From positions 62,001-126,000 of the forward strand of contig NZ_JAFJYB010000002.1 of NCBI RefSeq assembly GCF_018777385.1: a DNA stretch of 64,000 nt, written 5' to 3'. Made by a program: the position numbers and the translations under genes. The stretch comes from Candidatus Symbiopectobacterium endolongispinus (GTDB taxonomy: Bacteria > Pseudomonadota > Gammaproteobacteria > Enterobacterales > Enterobacteriaceae). Of the stretch, positions 21,586 to 49,947 are shown one piece after another. Below the pieces are notes generated by a model that had not been told where the DNA came from, did no database searches, and saw only the letters and a program-made list of their open reading frames with translations. Position 1 is the first letter of the stretch. Every line of letters starts with the position of its first letter.

Positions 21586-21604
21586 GGTCACCTCCGCTAT
21601 AAGT

Positions 21605-21633
21605 CAAAAGGAACGAGTCACTCGTTCCTTTTG
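21605..21633. terminator. Bidirectional hairpin between yqaE and the adhesin
   Basis: A perfect 13-bp inverted repeat (CAAAAGGAACGAG / CTCGTTCCTTTTG) with a 3-nt loop, flanked by A and T runs in the stem ends. It lies just upstream of yqaE and about 100 bp past the adhesin stop, where it would terminate the leftward adhesin transcript. Confidence 0.7.
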
Positions 21634-21733
21634 AGCCTAGTACAAAGTAAATACACTGACAATAACGGTACTTTCCAGCCCCTTTTTCGCTACAAACGAA
21701 TACCACAGCGCAGGCGCCCATTGACATGGGCGA

Positions 21734-36032: not shown

Positions 36033-36090
36033 GTCTAATCAAACAACATGACACAATGTCCAGCCAGGGCGGATCCCACAGTAACAGGGA

Positions 36091-36126
36091 TACTGACTCA
36101 TCAACCCCGACGTTGATGAGTCAGTA
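36091..36126. terminator. Perfect 14-bp hairpin
   Basis: TACTGACTCATCAA and its exact complement TTGATGAGTCAGTA flank an 8-nt loop (CCCCGACG). It lies about 60 bp after the small frame ending at 36032. No long T run follows, so it may be a terminator without U-tract or the end of a lost mobile element. Confidence 0.5.
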
Positions 36127-36389
36127 TTCTGGTTACCGGATATGCTCTGTGTGACTTGCTTAACACGACGAAAATTAAGCTGTACCCCATCGATCAGGAC
36201 ATCGACCACACTGGCAAAAACGAAATCAGTATGTTGCAAGGGCTCTCACCATCAATGGCTCAGTTTGACGTGATACTTACACACCATTTTGAGCAGCATT
36301 GATAGGGTGTAAACCACGTGGACATTTGCAGGATGGCGGCAGAGCAAGTAGGTTTGTGACGTAATAGACTATCTAATAAGGAAATCAGC

Positions 36390-41876: not shown

Positions 41877-43189
41877 GGTCTTCCCCTATCATGATGGGAG
41901 ACTCATAACCCCATGTTTAACCTGCCGTAATGGAACATCACTGCCACCTTAAAGCGTTCTTTGTTCCGGTATCCTCTGGACTTGATCCGCAGCAGCCTTA
42001 TCTTGCTGTTTAGTGACTCTGCATTACCGTTTGATACCCTGTGTTTCATGGCATTCAGGATCCCGTACAGTCGTTTACGTAACGTCCGGGCGGCGCTGCT
42101 TAGTAGCGGGACACCAACGTCTTTTGCCATCCCTATCCATTCCAGCCACAGACGCCTGCTGTGTTCGTCATACCGGCGGTTCCAGAGTTCCCGGGCCAGC
42201 GCCTTCATTGCCCAGCAACGGCTGGTATCAGGCAGAACCATCTGCGCTGCTTCCAGTCTTTCTGCTATTCGACCATGACGTTTATGGCGACCGTACAACC
42301 ACAGATAACGGGAACGATGTGCACTTTTTCGTGCCGGTAACGGGATGGTTTTCATCTCCAACTGTCGTGTTTTATCTACGACGGCACAGAGCATTTTCGC
42401 TACATGGAAGTGGTCGAACGCGATCTTCTCCACCGCGTTAGGCAGATGGAGCCGCGCTGCGCTTATATAGGATAGATTCATGTCCATCGACAGGGTTTTA
42501 ATGGATTCAATCTGGCGGTCACCCAGACTCCGGAGATAGCCAGCAAGACTTTCAACTCCGCGATCATCTTTGAGTTCCAATGCCTGTCCTTGGGTATCAG
42601 AGATAACGGTGACGTACTGATGCCCCTTTTTGAAAGCGACCTCATCAACACAGAGATGACGTGCGGCCTGAGGTGTTTTTCGACGGGCCAGTCCACGCTT
42701 AACCGCCCGTTGCATAATATTATCGACAGCATTCCAGCTCAGCCTCAGCTGTTTCCTGACGGCATCCACGGTGCTGATTTTCAGCCATGAGATAACGAAC
42801 GACTCGAACAACAGCGTATACCGGCTACCGGGGCCGGCCCATGGAACAGACAGCGTCTGGTAGCCATGCTCCGGGCACATAATACGGGGTACATCAGCTT
42901 CGACTATTGTCGCGAACTGACAGGTATCGAGATGGCGCCATTTACGATGTCGGTGATCGTGAATAGGACAAGATTTCCCGCAGGTTGGACAGGTTAACTG
43001 AGTGTTTTTCGCAATCTCAACTGTAACGGTAACAGAACCGGCATTTTCATCGAGAGAAAGAGACTTTACCTGCCACGGAATAGACAGGTTGAGGATATGA
43101 GCGTAGAGAGACTTTTCGTCCATGGTGGTGACCTCTGGCGATTTAATACGCCATTATCATGCCTTCAGCCACCACAACAAGGGAAGACC
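41877..43189 (-). mobile_element. ISL3-family insertion sequence, copy 1 (complete)
   Basis: About 1.31 kb with one transposase. The left end begins GGTCTTCCCCTATCATG; the right end, read inward on the minus strand, begins GGTCTTCCCTTGTTGTG. The two match at the first nine bases and then partly, with a shared GTGG/TGGG motif, so both inverted repeats are present. The flanking 8-mers differ (tttagcat and cattcacg), so no target duplication is seen, which points to recombination after insertion. Limits are uncertain by 1 bp. Confidence 0.85.
41903..43123 (-). CDS. ISL3-family transposase, copy 1
   Basis: A 406-residue DDE transposase. The N-terminal zinc-finger region has CPTCGKSC followed by HDHRHRKWRHLDTC; then the helix-turn-helix (VRKQLRLSWNAVDNIM) and the DDE core (LCVDEVAFKKG, LSMDMNLSYISA, AFDHFHVAKM; C-terminal RVSNGNAESLNSKIR with the Glu). 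It is nearly identical to copy 2, differing at a few positions close to the C-terminus. Confidence 0.93.
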   Translation of the reverse strand: MDEKSLYAHILNLSIPWQVKSLSLDENAGSVTVTVEIAKNTQLTCPTCGKSCPIHDHRHRKWRHLDTCQFATIVEADVPRIMCPEHGYQTLSVPWAGPGSRYTLLFESFVISWLKISTVDAVRKQLRLSWNAVDNIMQRAVKRGLARRKTPQAARHLCVDEVAFKKGHQYVTVISDTQGQALELKDDRGVESLAGYLRSLGDRQIESIKTLSMDMNLSYISAARLHLPNAVEKIAFDHFHVAKMLCAVVDKTRQLEMKTIPLPARKSAHRSRYLWLYGRHKRHGRIAERLEAAQMVLPDTSRCWAMKALARELWNRRYDEHSRRLWLEWIGMAKDVGVPLLSSAARTLRKRLYGILNAMKHRVSNGNAESLNSKIRLLRIKSRGYRNKERFKVAVMFHYGRLNMGL

Positions 43190-44546
43190 CATTCACGAAC
43201 AGCGTTAACCGATCTCCAGGCTGAATATTTGCCTTTTTATTGATGACCGAATTCCAGCGCATAACATCTGCGATATCTACCCCGTGACGTTTGGCGATAC
43301 TCGCGAGAGAGTCTCCTTTACGCACCTGATAGGTAATGGAATTACTGTTACCCTTTTTACTGCCCGCAGAGGCCTGTACAACCTGAAGCGATTGACCAAC
43401 CTTCAAAGCGTTAGCGCTGGCTAGGTTGGTCCACTTGCGCAGATCCTGCGCGCTGACCTTCAGTTTCGCCGCAATACCTGACAAGGTGTCACCTGAACGA
43501 ACCTTGTATTCCGTGTTTGCGGATAACTGCGCCAGTTTAGCGGGTTGTACAACGGCGATTCGCCATCTGCCAACGAATCCTTCAACTGCTCAACATGTGC
43601 TTTAGGCACCATAATGTAATGTGGCCCGTTCGGAGCGGTCACATCACGTTTGTAGCCTGTGTTGTAGCTCTTCAGTTTTGTTAGCGACAAGCCAGCCATT
43701 TCAGCCGCTTGCGTCAACTCCATCTGTTGACCCAGGTCTACCTGCGCCAGTGCCCGACTTTCGTTGGGCTTAGGTAACTCAATGCCGTATTTTTTGCTAT
43801 TCTCAAGAATATTGCTTAAGGCTAACATTTTCGGGATATAAAGTGATGTTTCACGTGGTAACGCCAATGCCCAGTAACTCGTTGACCTGTCTTTTGCCTT
43901 ATTTGCTTTTACTGCTTGCAAAACACGCCCTTCACCGCTGTTATAGGCGGCTATGGTAAGTAGCCAGTCACCATCAAACATTGTGTTGAGGCGCCGCATC
44001 ATGTCTAAGGCGGCCGTCGTTGATGCAACAACATCGCTACGACCATCATACCACTGGTTCTGTTTCAAACCGTAGTTACGCCCAATGCCCGGCACAATCT
44101 GCCAGAGCCATGCGGCATTGGCAGATTGTGCCGGGCATTGGGATCAAAAGCGCTCTCCACTATGGGTAGCAGTACCAGTTCCATCGGCATTTTGCGCTGC
44201 TTAATCTGCTCGACTATCCAGTACATGTACGGCTCTGCCCGTAATGTTACATCGTGGAGATAGCTCTTATTTTTTAAGTATCGTGTTTTTTTGCTCGCGG
44301 TTCCGGACGTTATCCGGAACCTCCATCTTCAGCTCGTCGCTAATGAAGTTCCACAGGCTACGCTGCGCTAGGCCATTATTATCCAACCAGCGCGCGGATA
44401 TCTCTCGACTTCCTGTGTACTTTCCTGCTTCACCTTGACCTACTGAAGACAGACTCTGCCCATGTTGTTTCGGTTGCGAGGTGTCTTGGTAGACCCCTTG
44501 GCAACGCCAACAAGACTGAGGCGATAATAATCGCGTGAGCCTTCAT
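43190..44546 (-). pseudogene. mltD: Membrane-bound lytic transglycosylase D, multiply frameshifted and IS-truncated
   Basis: MltD cleaves peptidoglycan and is anchored as a lipoprotein. The reconstruction shows the N-terminus (MKAHAIIIASVLLA), SYLHDVTLRAEPYMYW, the SLT domain (ELVLLPIVESAFDP, then GIGRNYGLKQ, AYNSGEGRV) and LysM repeats. Lesions: frame changes near 44505, 44270 and 43570, and a 5-base palindrome-forming change near 44095. The last six or so codons are replaced by IS sequence. The catalytic ESAFDP region is just before the palindrome lesion, so the enzyme is dead. Confidence 0.9.
44081..44142. repeat. 24-bp perfect inverted repeat inside mltD
   Basis: CCCAATGCCCGGCACAATCTGCCA (written here as CCCAATGCCCGGC plus ACAATCTGCCA, 44081-44104) is exactly complementary to 44119-44142, with a 14-nt loop. 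The right arm is normal mltD coding sequence (W-Q-I-V-P-G-I-G). The left arm has extra bases compared with the family and causes a frameshift, so the palindrome itself appears to be the mutation. Confidence 0.85.
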
Positions 44547-49107: not shown

Positions 49108-49947
49108 ATGAAAAAGAGCGCATTGATTATTTACATGTTAATGATTCTGACTGGTAGCATTGGTATTTTATTCTATATGAAATCCGCACGTACGCCGACA
49201 CCAGGAACGAGTGAAATGCGGGGAAATTCTTTAACAGAAACCATTGTCGTGGCCGTCGCCCAGCGAGACCTGTCTGCCAACAATGTTCTGAAGAAAGAAG
49301 ATTTTCAATTGAAAAATATATCTGTATCACCAGAAAGCACTGATATGCAGTTCAATATAAAAGAAAATGACCTTATTCATTGGGCACTTAAAAGTGCGGT
49401 AGCCAAAGGCACCTACCTTCAACCAACTGCGTTGGTTGAAGGTAGTGATGATTATATCGCTATGTTTATCATGCCAGGAAATGTGCTTTATCCCTTTGAG
49501 TTAGATGTTTCTGATAATTATCTGTTAACCAATTTAAAGCCAGGTGCCAGTGTGGATATCTATCTTTCCTATGGACTCCGTCAAGACGATAACGGAAGTG
49601 AGGACATCATCTCGCCCGCGAAGTCGATTCGCGATACACGGCTTAAACCCCTGATGATCAATAGGCGTGTATTGGCAATTCGTCGGGTAAACCAGGATGA
49701 AAAAGAGAAGTCTCAAGAAAGCAGAAGCCAACTCCTGGTTGAACTGAGAGATGCAGAAATCAAGCTGCTAAAAAGATTAGAAGGCAACGCCAGAATACTG
49801 CTATTTCCCACGGCCAGAAACCCTATTGACTTACGTTCGAGAGGTAGTGAAACGCTATCCGGCAAAGAGGCAATATGGCCCGTCAGTAGTGCCCCCCCAC
49901 TGTTTGATGAACCTCGCTCGCGGCCCACACACGAGTGGCGCGGTTAA
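49108..49947 (+). CDS. rcpC: Tad pilus assembly protein RcpC/CpaB
   Basis: A 279-residue periplasmic protein with an N-terminal membrane anchor (LIIYMLMILTGSIGILFYM) and an SAF-like domain (VVAVAQRDLSANNVLKKEDFQ, AVAKGTYLQPTALVEG), the arrangement of CpaB/RcpC. It helps secretin assembly or gating in Tad. It follows flp after a 209-bp gap where the prepilin peptidase tadV would be expected, but no tadV is seen. Intact. Confidence 0.87.
   Translation: MKKSALIIYMLMILTGSIGILFYMKSARTPTPGTSEMRGNSLTETIVVAVAQRDLSANNVLKKEDFQLKNISVSPESTDMQFNIKENDLIHWALKSAVAKGTYLQPTALVEGSDDYIAMFIMPGNVLYPFELDVSDNYLLTNLKPGASVDIYLSYGLRQDDNGSEDIISPAKSIRDTRLKPLMINRRVLAIRRVNQDEKEKSQESRSQLLVELRDAEIKLLKRLEGNARILLFPTARNPIDLRSRGSETLSGKEAIWPVSSAPPLFDEPRSRPTHEWRG

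Follow-up and report, generated by a model that had tools for sequence, protein, structure and literature searches.

The window, a stretch of 64,000 nucleotides from the genome of Candidatus Symbiopectobacterium endolongispinus (G000; 4,492,448 bases in 10 contigs), carries a degraded copy of mltD, the gene for lytic murein transglycosylase D, that runs directly into an insertion element of the ISL3 family (Table 1). Four relatives of the same genus (G001 to G004) have an intact mltD ORF of 459 amino acids at the same place. The G002 orthologue scores 814.8 bits against the murein transglycosylase D family NF008050 (cut-off 508) and comprises SLT and LysM domains. Both domains are matched by two pieces of the window's copy, which is spread over three frames and truncated, and is a pseudogene rather than a working member of the family. 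From 43192 downwards the relatives run on to the normal mltD stop; the end of the insertion element that stands there in the window (about 43192 down to 43130, the end of the query) is found at 23 further places in the same genome. Set against all four relatives, the copy has four small indels, namely a loss of two bases near the start (about 44505), a one-base gain in a run (about 44290), a loss of one base (about 43558) and a gain of two bases at a palindrome within the gene. Because the other three indels and the ISL3 element also break mltD, the palindrome need not have been the first lesion. An earlier note on this DNA had cast it as the breaker of the mltD frame; it does shift the frame, but as one lesion among several. 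Thr154 and Gly146, invariant in all 80 relatives examined, are both altered in the window's MltD, and the loss of two such residues suggests that the gene was probably free of selection already. The relatives examined here and below by name are the best 80 of 166 found and include G001, G003 and G004.

Table 1. Features of the mltD locus and of a second site in the window.
Feature	Position in window	Strand	Remarks
ISL3-family insertion element	41903..43192	-	End replaces the mltD 3' end; PF01610 DDE_Tnp_ISL3 in a 406-aa ORF, 41903-43123
mltD pseudogene (lytic murein transglycosylase D), 3' end truncated	43192..44546	-	Aligned to the intact mltD of relatives
Template arm	44081..44104	+	3' arm in gene orientation; codes W-Q-I-V-P-G-I-G
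Substitution, Thr154 to Ile in MltD	44085	+	New base pairs with the base already in the other arm
Spacer, 14 bases, not inverted	44105..44118	+	Inner 3-bp stem with 4-base loop
Rewritten arm	44119..44142	+	5' arm in gene orientation; exact complement of 44081-44104
Putative switch entry point, TGGC	44119..44122	+	As in relatives; pairs with GCCA 44101-44104; role inferred
Putative return point, TTGGG	44138..44142	+	As in relatives, at the outer arm end; role inferred
Likely second perfected palindrome	49413..49445 (C5:111413)	+	15-base arms, 3-base spacer

Computation confirmed the inverted repeat at 44081-44142 and the exact complementarity of its arms over 24 bases, both of which had been read from the sequence beforehand; the same repeat is also detected as 29-base arms that are 93% complementary. 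Its arms are the longest in the window among perfect inverted repeats with spacers of up to 20 bases (24 bases, against 16 for the next). Folded as single-stranded DNA, the hairpin reaches -35.7 kcal/mol with a z of -11.0 relative to shuffles, whereas the same segment in the four same-genus relatives reaches only -12.5 (three genomes) or -13.5 kcal/mol (one), with a z of -0.76 or -1.69. The hairpin at 44081-44142 shows no sign of a functional role.

The four same-genus relatives share one common unconverted form of the changed arm, which encodes P-K-A-T-S-S-A-N and not the N-A-x-S-A that the earlier note had taken to be normal. A shorter, imperfect match had been predicted for relatives and is what they have, the longest stems in their 60-base segment measuring 4-8 bases in all 80 (best 80 of 166). 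The same left arm beside an intact mltD, sought in relatives as a refutation, is present in none of the four same-genus genomes and none of the 80 named ones (again the best 80 of 166). Among the named genomes, the best 80 of 166, the nearest mltD genes are those of Candidatus Symbiopectobacterium NZEC151, of a record labelled Serratia marcescens and of Candidatus Symbiopectobacterium 'North America'. The local complementarity score in G002 is 6 against a shuffled mean of 4.9, a modest ancestral complementarity. All four same-genus relatives already have GCCA/TGGC beside the spacer and CCCA/TGGG at the outer ends, and the inner part of the hairpin is one that the relatives' strand can already form.

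Against this background, nearly all of the change lies in one arm. The rewritten arm differs from the relatives by five substitutions and a two-base insertion, each of which completes the complement to 44081-44104. The insertion had been put at about five bases (CGGCA); the break of frame deduced from it stands, since the two sizes are the same modulo 3, but the alignment of the five genomes gives a gain of two. The spacer has one substitution relative to all four same-genus relatives, and it is this that alters Gly146. The template arm matches G001, G002 and G003 at 22 of 24 bases. It was thus not left unchanged, as had been supposed, and carries two substitutions relative to all four same-genus relatives, at 44085 and 44090. 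The peptide W-Q-I-V-P-G-I-G is indeed coded here, but it is not the conserved form, since all 80 relatives have Thr at residue 154 where the window has Ile. The substitution at 44090 is synonymous, and its complement is present in the rewritten arm.

The rewritten arm was very probably made by a template switch (quasipalindrome correction) with the neighbouring arm as template. This correction of an imperfect palindrome, which the earlier note had advanced, is supported as the best explanation. The mechanism is established in the lacZ and thyA genes of E. coli (PMC7202029, PMC6357072; these and the papers below are cited for the portions of their text available to us). From the observed anatomy, the form of the site in relatives and the exact complement we infer a fold-back, its strand, its link to replication and its order among the lesions. 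The switch would have occurred during synthesis of the strand that reads as the window's plus strand, when the new 3' end had run through 44081-44118 and on into the second arm as far as TGGC. On folding back, TGGC would pair with GCCA at 44101-44104, perhaps helped by the small inner stem, and would be extended by copying from 44100 to about 44086 before returning to its own template at the outer bases TTGGG. A single pass of this kind would yield all five substitutions and the two-base insertion, moving the mltD frame by +2. One clean pass nevertheless leaves some bases unexplained, as two of the 24 bases of the template arm differ from all four relatives. The change at 44090 likely preceded the switch, since its complement sits in the rewritten arm. 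At 44085 the new base agrees with the one already present in the other arm, which makes either a second correction in the opposite direction or a chance, independent transition likely.

In a different origin, a hairpin in existing DNA (a cruciform or a single strand) would have had its mismatches repaired toward either arm, with no polymerase switch at the fork. The derived arms are mosaic-like in a way that fits such repair, the rewritten-arm base having won at 44085/44138 and the template-arm base at the other sites. Both arms have also changed in several other perfected palindromes of the genome (left/right 5/2, 6/2, 3/2 and 2/5), partly through ordinary divergence. Such repair does not readily account for the strong one-sidedness at mltD, where five substitutions and a two-base insertion in one arm stand against two substitutions in the other. 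Inversion of a spacer, found at C4:1134164, would not be expected from hairpin mismatch repair either, although this is a different site and proves nothing for mltD. On balance we consider repair of a standing hairpin improbable.

An assembly or sequencing artefact at the inverted repeat is less probable still. With 10 contigs and a repeated IS end at 23 further places, the genome is one in which errors might be suspected; the inverted repeat itself, however, is 62 bases long and single-copy, and ordinary reads should therefore span it. The relatives have no long repeat at the site that might mislead an assembler, and several similar events lie at separate places with matching flanks. A mobile palindromic element was considered and rejected, the palindrome being present as a single copy in the genome. 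With the mltD stretch as query (E up to 0.001), no second donor for the new bases was found in the symbiont's own genome, where the sole match besides the region itself was its own inverted arm.

A further explanation would be chance: point mutations, each independent, together with one small insertion, would have completed the palindrome in a pseudogene that evolves neutrally. That mltD is a pseudogene with other lesions suits this account. Among 20 simulations matched for the number of differences, however, none produced a perfect inverted repeat with arms of 14 bases or more and three or more arm differences, and independent mutation is in practice refuted by simulation, its probability being vanishingly small.

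Scans of G000 against G002 also speak for a template switch at mltD. A first scan covered 151 kb of G000 aligned to G002 and 1291 clusters of at least three differences. One cluster, that of the mltD palindrome, had an exact inverted template nearby in G000 but not in G002, and no cluster had one in G002 but not in G000; among the reversed, complemented and direct controls there was no hit at a length of at least 10 and one, in the reversed control, at length 8. A wider scan took in 1.6 Mb of G000 and 1.2 Mb of G002 and yielded 98 one-to-one segments with 477,752 columns (92.3% identical); because the assumed colinearity with G002 is poor, about 475-478 kb of the 1.6 Mb could be aligned. Among its 3669 clusters of at least three differences, exact templates of length at least 10 numbered 3 in G000 and 1 in G002, with none in the controls. 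At length 9 the reversed and direct controls gave one match each, and when clusters of two differences were admitted there were up to two matches in the reversed control and one in the direct control.

Palindromes were also counted directly, as perfect inverted repeats whose arms have 14 bases or more, with spacers of up to 20 and at least three arm positions unlike the other genome. G000 has 16 of these and G002 has 6, or 10 and 5 when at least five arm differences are required; the terminator-like C5:764213 is counted in both the 16 and the 6. Simulations that keep the numbers of substitutions and indels gave no such palindrome in 20 of 20 runs at either threshold. The events are nonetheless few: the alignments that hold these 16 palindromes also contain 640 indels and 33,785 substitutions. 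Half of the G000 palindromes (8 of 16) lie within ORFs of at least 250 amino acids in G002, as opposed to none of the 6 in G002 (one-sided p 0.04), a contrast tilted somewhat toward G000 because G002 ORFs are the yardstick. Outside long ORFs there is no clear excess (8 against 6). The eight affected frames are mltD, an AMP-binding enzyme that comes closest to DltA without reaching its cut-off, a glutamate-cysteine ligase, an MFS transporter, a GGDEF protein, a type I secretion ATPase, an ORF of 297 amino acids and the frame that corresponds to the 279-aa ORF of the window. An excess in long ORFs is what relaxed selection would give. Several similar hairpins suggest a recurrent route of gene decay, and the perfecting of palindromes likely recurs as this genome's genes decay.

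The direction of change was followed in 10 of the 16 G000 palindromes by searching both forms in G001, G003 and G004; C4:1098123, C4:398439, C4:860625, C5:764213, C4:1162093 and C5:498187 lie outside this comparison. Four of the ten are clearly derived in G000, three are partial and three lack clear G000-specificity or point against it. The clear cases are mltD (97-100% identity for the G002 form, 86-89% for the G000 form), C4:873247 (77-94 against 73-86), C5:131017 (90-93 against 82-85) and C4:1134164, at which the G002 form matches two genomes at 87-91 and the G000 form one at 80 over part of its length, with no match in G001. In three of these four a frame that is open in G002 has been shifted (+2, +1 and +1).

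Two of the clear cases have further features. At C4:1134164-1134206, in an MFS transporter gene that is open in G002, perfected 19-base arms flank an inverted spacer, and the spacer, closing bases included, reads as the exact reverse complement of its G002 counterpart. Spacer inversion in yeast has been ascribed to intermolecular switching (PMC8604942). C4:873247-873308 has 27-base perfect arms and an adjoining short tandem duplication that is missing from G002; 30 bases on the side of its rewritten arm exactly match the opposite strand of G001, as expected of a copied arm.

The partial cases are less uniform. For C4:1168937, G003 matches the G002 form at 89% over 62 bases, against 79% for the G000 form, and G001 at 92% over 59 bases, against 89% over the whole; G001 is two bases shorter than G000 here, and G004 has no match. 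C5:111413, the second palindrome of the window in Table 1, is nearer the G002 form in G001 (92 against 89) and tied in G003 (82) and G004 (81), and the relatives retain three extra bases. The change there removes three bases relative to G002, keeps the frame and leaves open the 279-aa ORF, for which there is no family match in Pfam or NCBIfam. At C5:527340 the G000 form is slightly ahead (96 against 94 in G001, 94 against 93 in G003) and is the only one matched in G004 (86), but the extra base is missing in all three.

Of the remaining three, C5:749143 is nearer the G000 form in G001 (95% against 89%), tied in G003 at 89% and at 85% against 87% in G004. C4:862674 slightly favours the G000 form in G001 (91% against 89%) and is nearer the G002 form in G003 (84 against 95) and G004 (81 against 88). 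At C5:707073 the G000 form is ahead in G001 (93% against 91%), with no match in G003 or G004. Of four palindromes outside this comparison that were searched in the relatives, three were already partly palindromic, because relatives also match them on the opposite strand: C4:860625 (all four relatives), C4:1098123 (G001 and G003) and C5:498187 (G001 and G002). The G002 stretch aligned at C5:498187 may be a paralogue, since another place in G002 is closer (87% against 84%). Two other perfect inverted repeats lie in the window. That at 36090-36127 has 16-base arms and, taken with its flanks, no match in G001 to G004; that at 21604-21634 has 15-base arms and is palindromic in G001 and G002 too.

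Bacterial mutations by template switching are known from reporters and hot spots (PMC7202029, PMC6357072). The mltD palindrome resembles E. coli lacZ QP5 and QP6 and the thyA hot spot in that a neighbouring arm is copied and the palindrome becomes perfect or more nearly so, and in the lacZ reporters, too, a small change of length accompanies the perfecting (PMC7202029, PMC6357072). The palindrome of the lacZ reporter measures 18 bp, compared with arms of 24 bases here (PMC6357072), and ours, unlike the reporter mutations, arose naturally and became fixed in a pseudogene of a likely symbiont. In Saccharomyces cerevisiae, too, clustered changes in coding DNA make inverted repeats perfect, and REG2 there combines arm conversion with spacer inversion as C4:1134164 does (PMC8604942). 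The yeast events are multinucleotide substitutions that replace amino acids (PMC8604942), whereas three of our clear cases change length and shift the frame. In proteobacteria, repeated template switching at non-coding inverted repeats was inferred by an earlier study reported in PMC8604942; those repeats are conserved, while ours are single derived events, 8 of 16 in long ORFs of a relative. Template switching behind microRNA and rRNA hairpins likewise makes perfect stems in one step and also produces inversions of the loop (PMC8794818). The mitochondria of Nematomorpha have many perfect inverted repeats inside protein genes, but theirs reach 284 bp (PMC6649704) and here several lie in broken genes.

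The type of mutation is thus already known, and it is its likely recurrence in a decaying symbiont that seems worth following. S. endolongispinus is an endosymbiont of mealybugs with a 4.492 Mb genome and 2,679 pseudogenes against 2,559 intact genes (PMC13345370). The main text of that 2026 paper on the symbiont's pseudogenes, searched at word starts, has no mention of palindromes, inverted repeats, template switches, mltD, recombination or exonucleases, and a search by title and the start of the abstract found no paper on template switching at inverted repeats in endosymbiont pseudogenes. On a symbiont chromosome half made up of pseudogenes, template-switch events survive in former genes and can be counted. 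The comparison of 16 with 6 overall, and of 8 with 0 in long ORFs as against 8 with 6 elsewhere, offers a simple way to part mutation from selection.

Loss of a repair function could further have raised the rate of such events in this lineage, as an extension of the template-switch reading rather than an alternative to it. Exonuclease I and exonuclease VII suppress quasipalindrome mutations in E. coli. In G000 the exonuclease I gene sbcB (L137, G000:C5:736182-737589) is split into frames of 363 and 170 amino acids by one 8-base deletion, and it is whole in G001, G002 and G003, the three relatives searched. In the papers found by searching for exonucleases and quasipalindromes, as far as their listed text goes, and in the available part of PMC6357072, the link with exonuclease I is not stated. 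PMC6357072 does report high constitutive rates of these switches in E. coli recB and lexA3 mutants; the recB, mutS and xseA frames are whole in G000, and loss of any of these genes was rejected as a cause. That xseA, recB and mutS are whole also weakens the case for a raised rate through loss of exonuclease I, and the single indel in sbcB may be a late loss. Nor is a raised rate needed to explain the counts, because their excess is limited to long ORFs (8 against 0, with 8 against 6 outside), where lost selection alone suffices. We therefore regard an effect of exonuclease I loss on the rate as doubtful. It is similarly a tentative and rather unlikely picture that the perfecting of palindromes is a standing, measurable route of gene breakage in a young symbiont genome, sped by this loss; in it, imperfect palindromes free of selection would turn into perfect hairpins across the chromosome, some with inverted spacers. 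The broken exonuclease I gene nonetheless provides a link to a repair defect that is unproven but open to test. At G000:C8:65811-67597, UvrD/Rep-type helicase frames of 338 and 373 amino acids stand in place of the single 699-aa frame of three same-genus relatives, and this split gene is possibly a broken rep.
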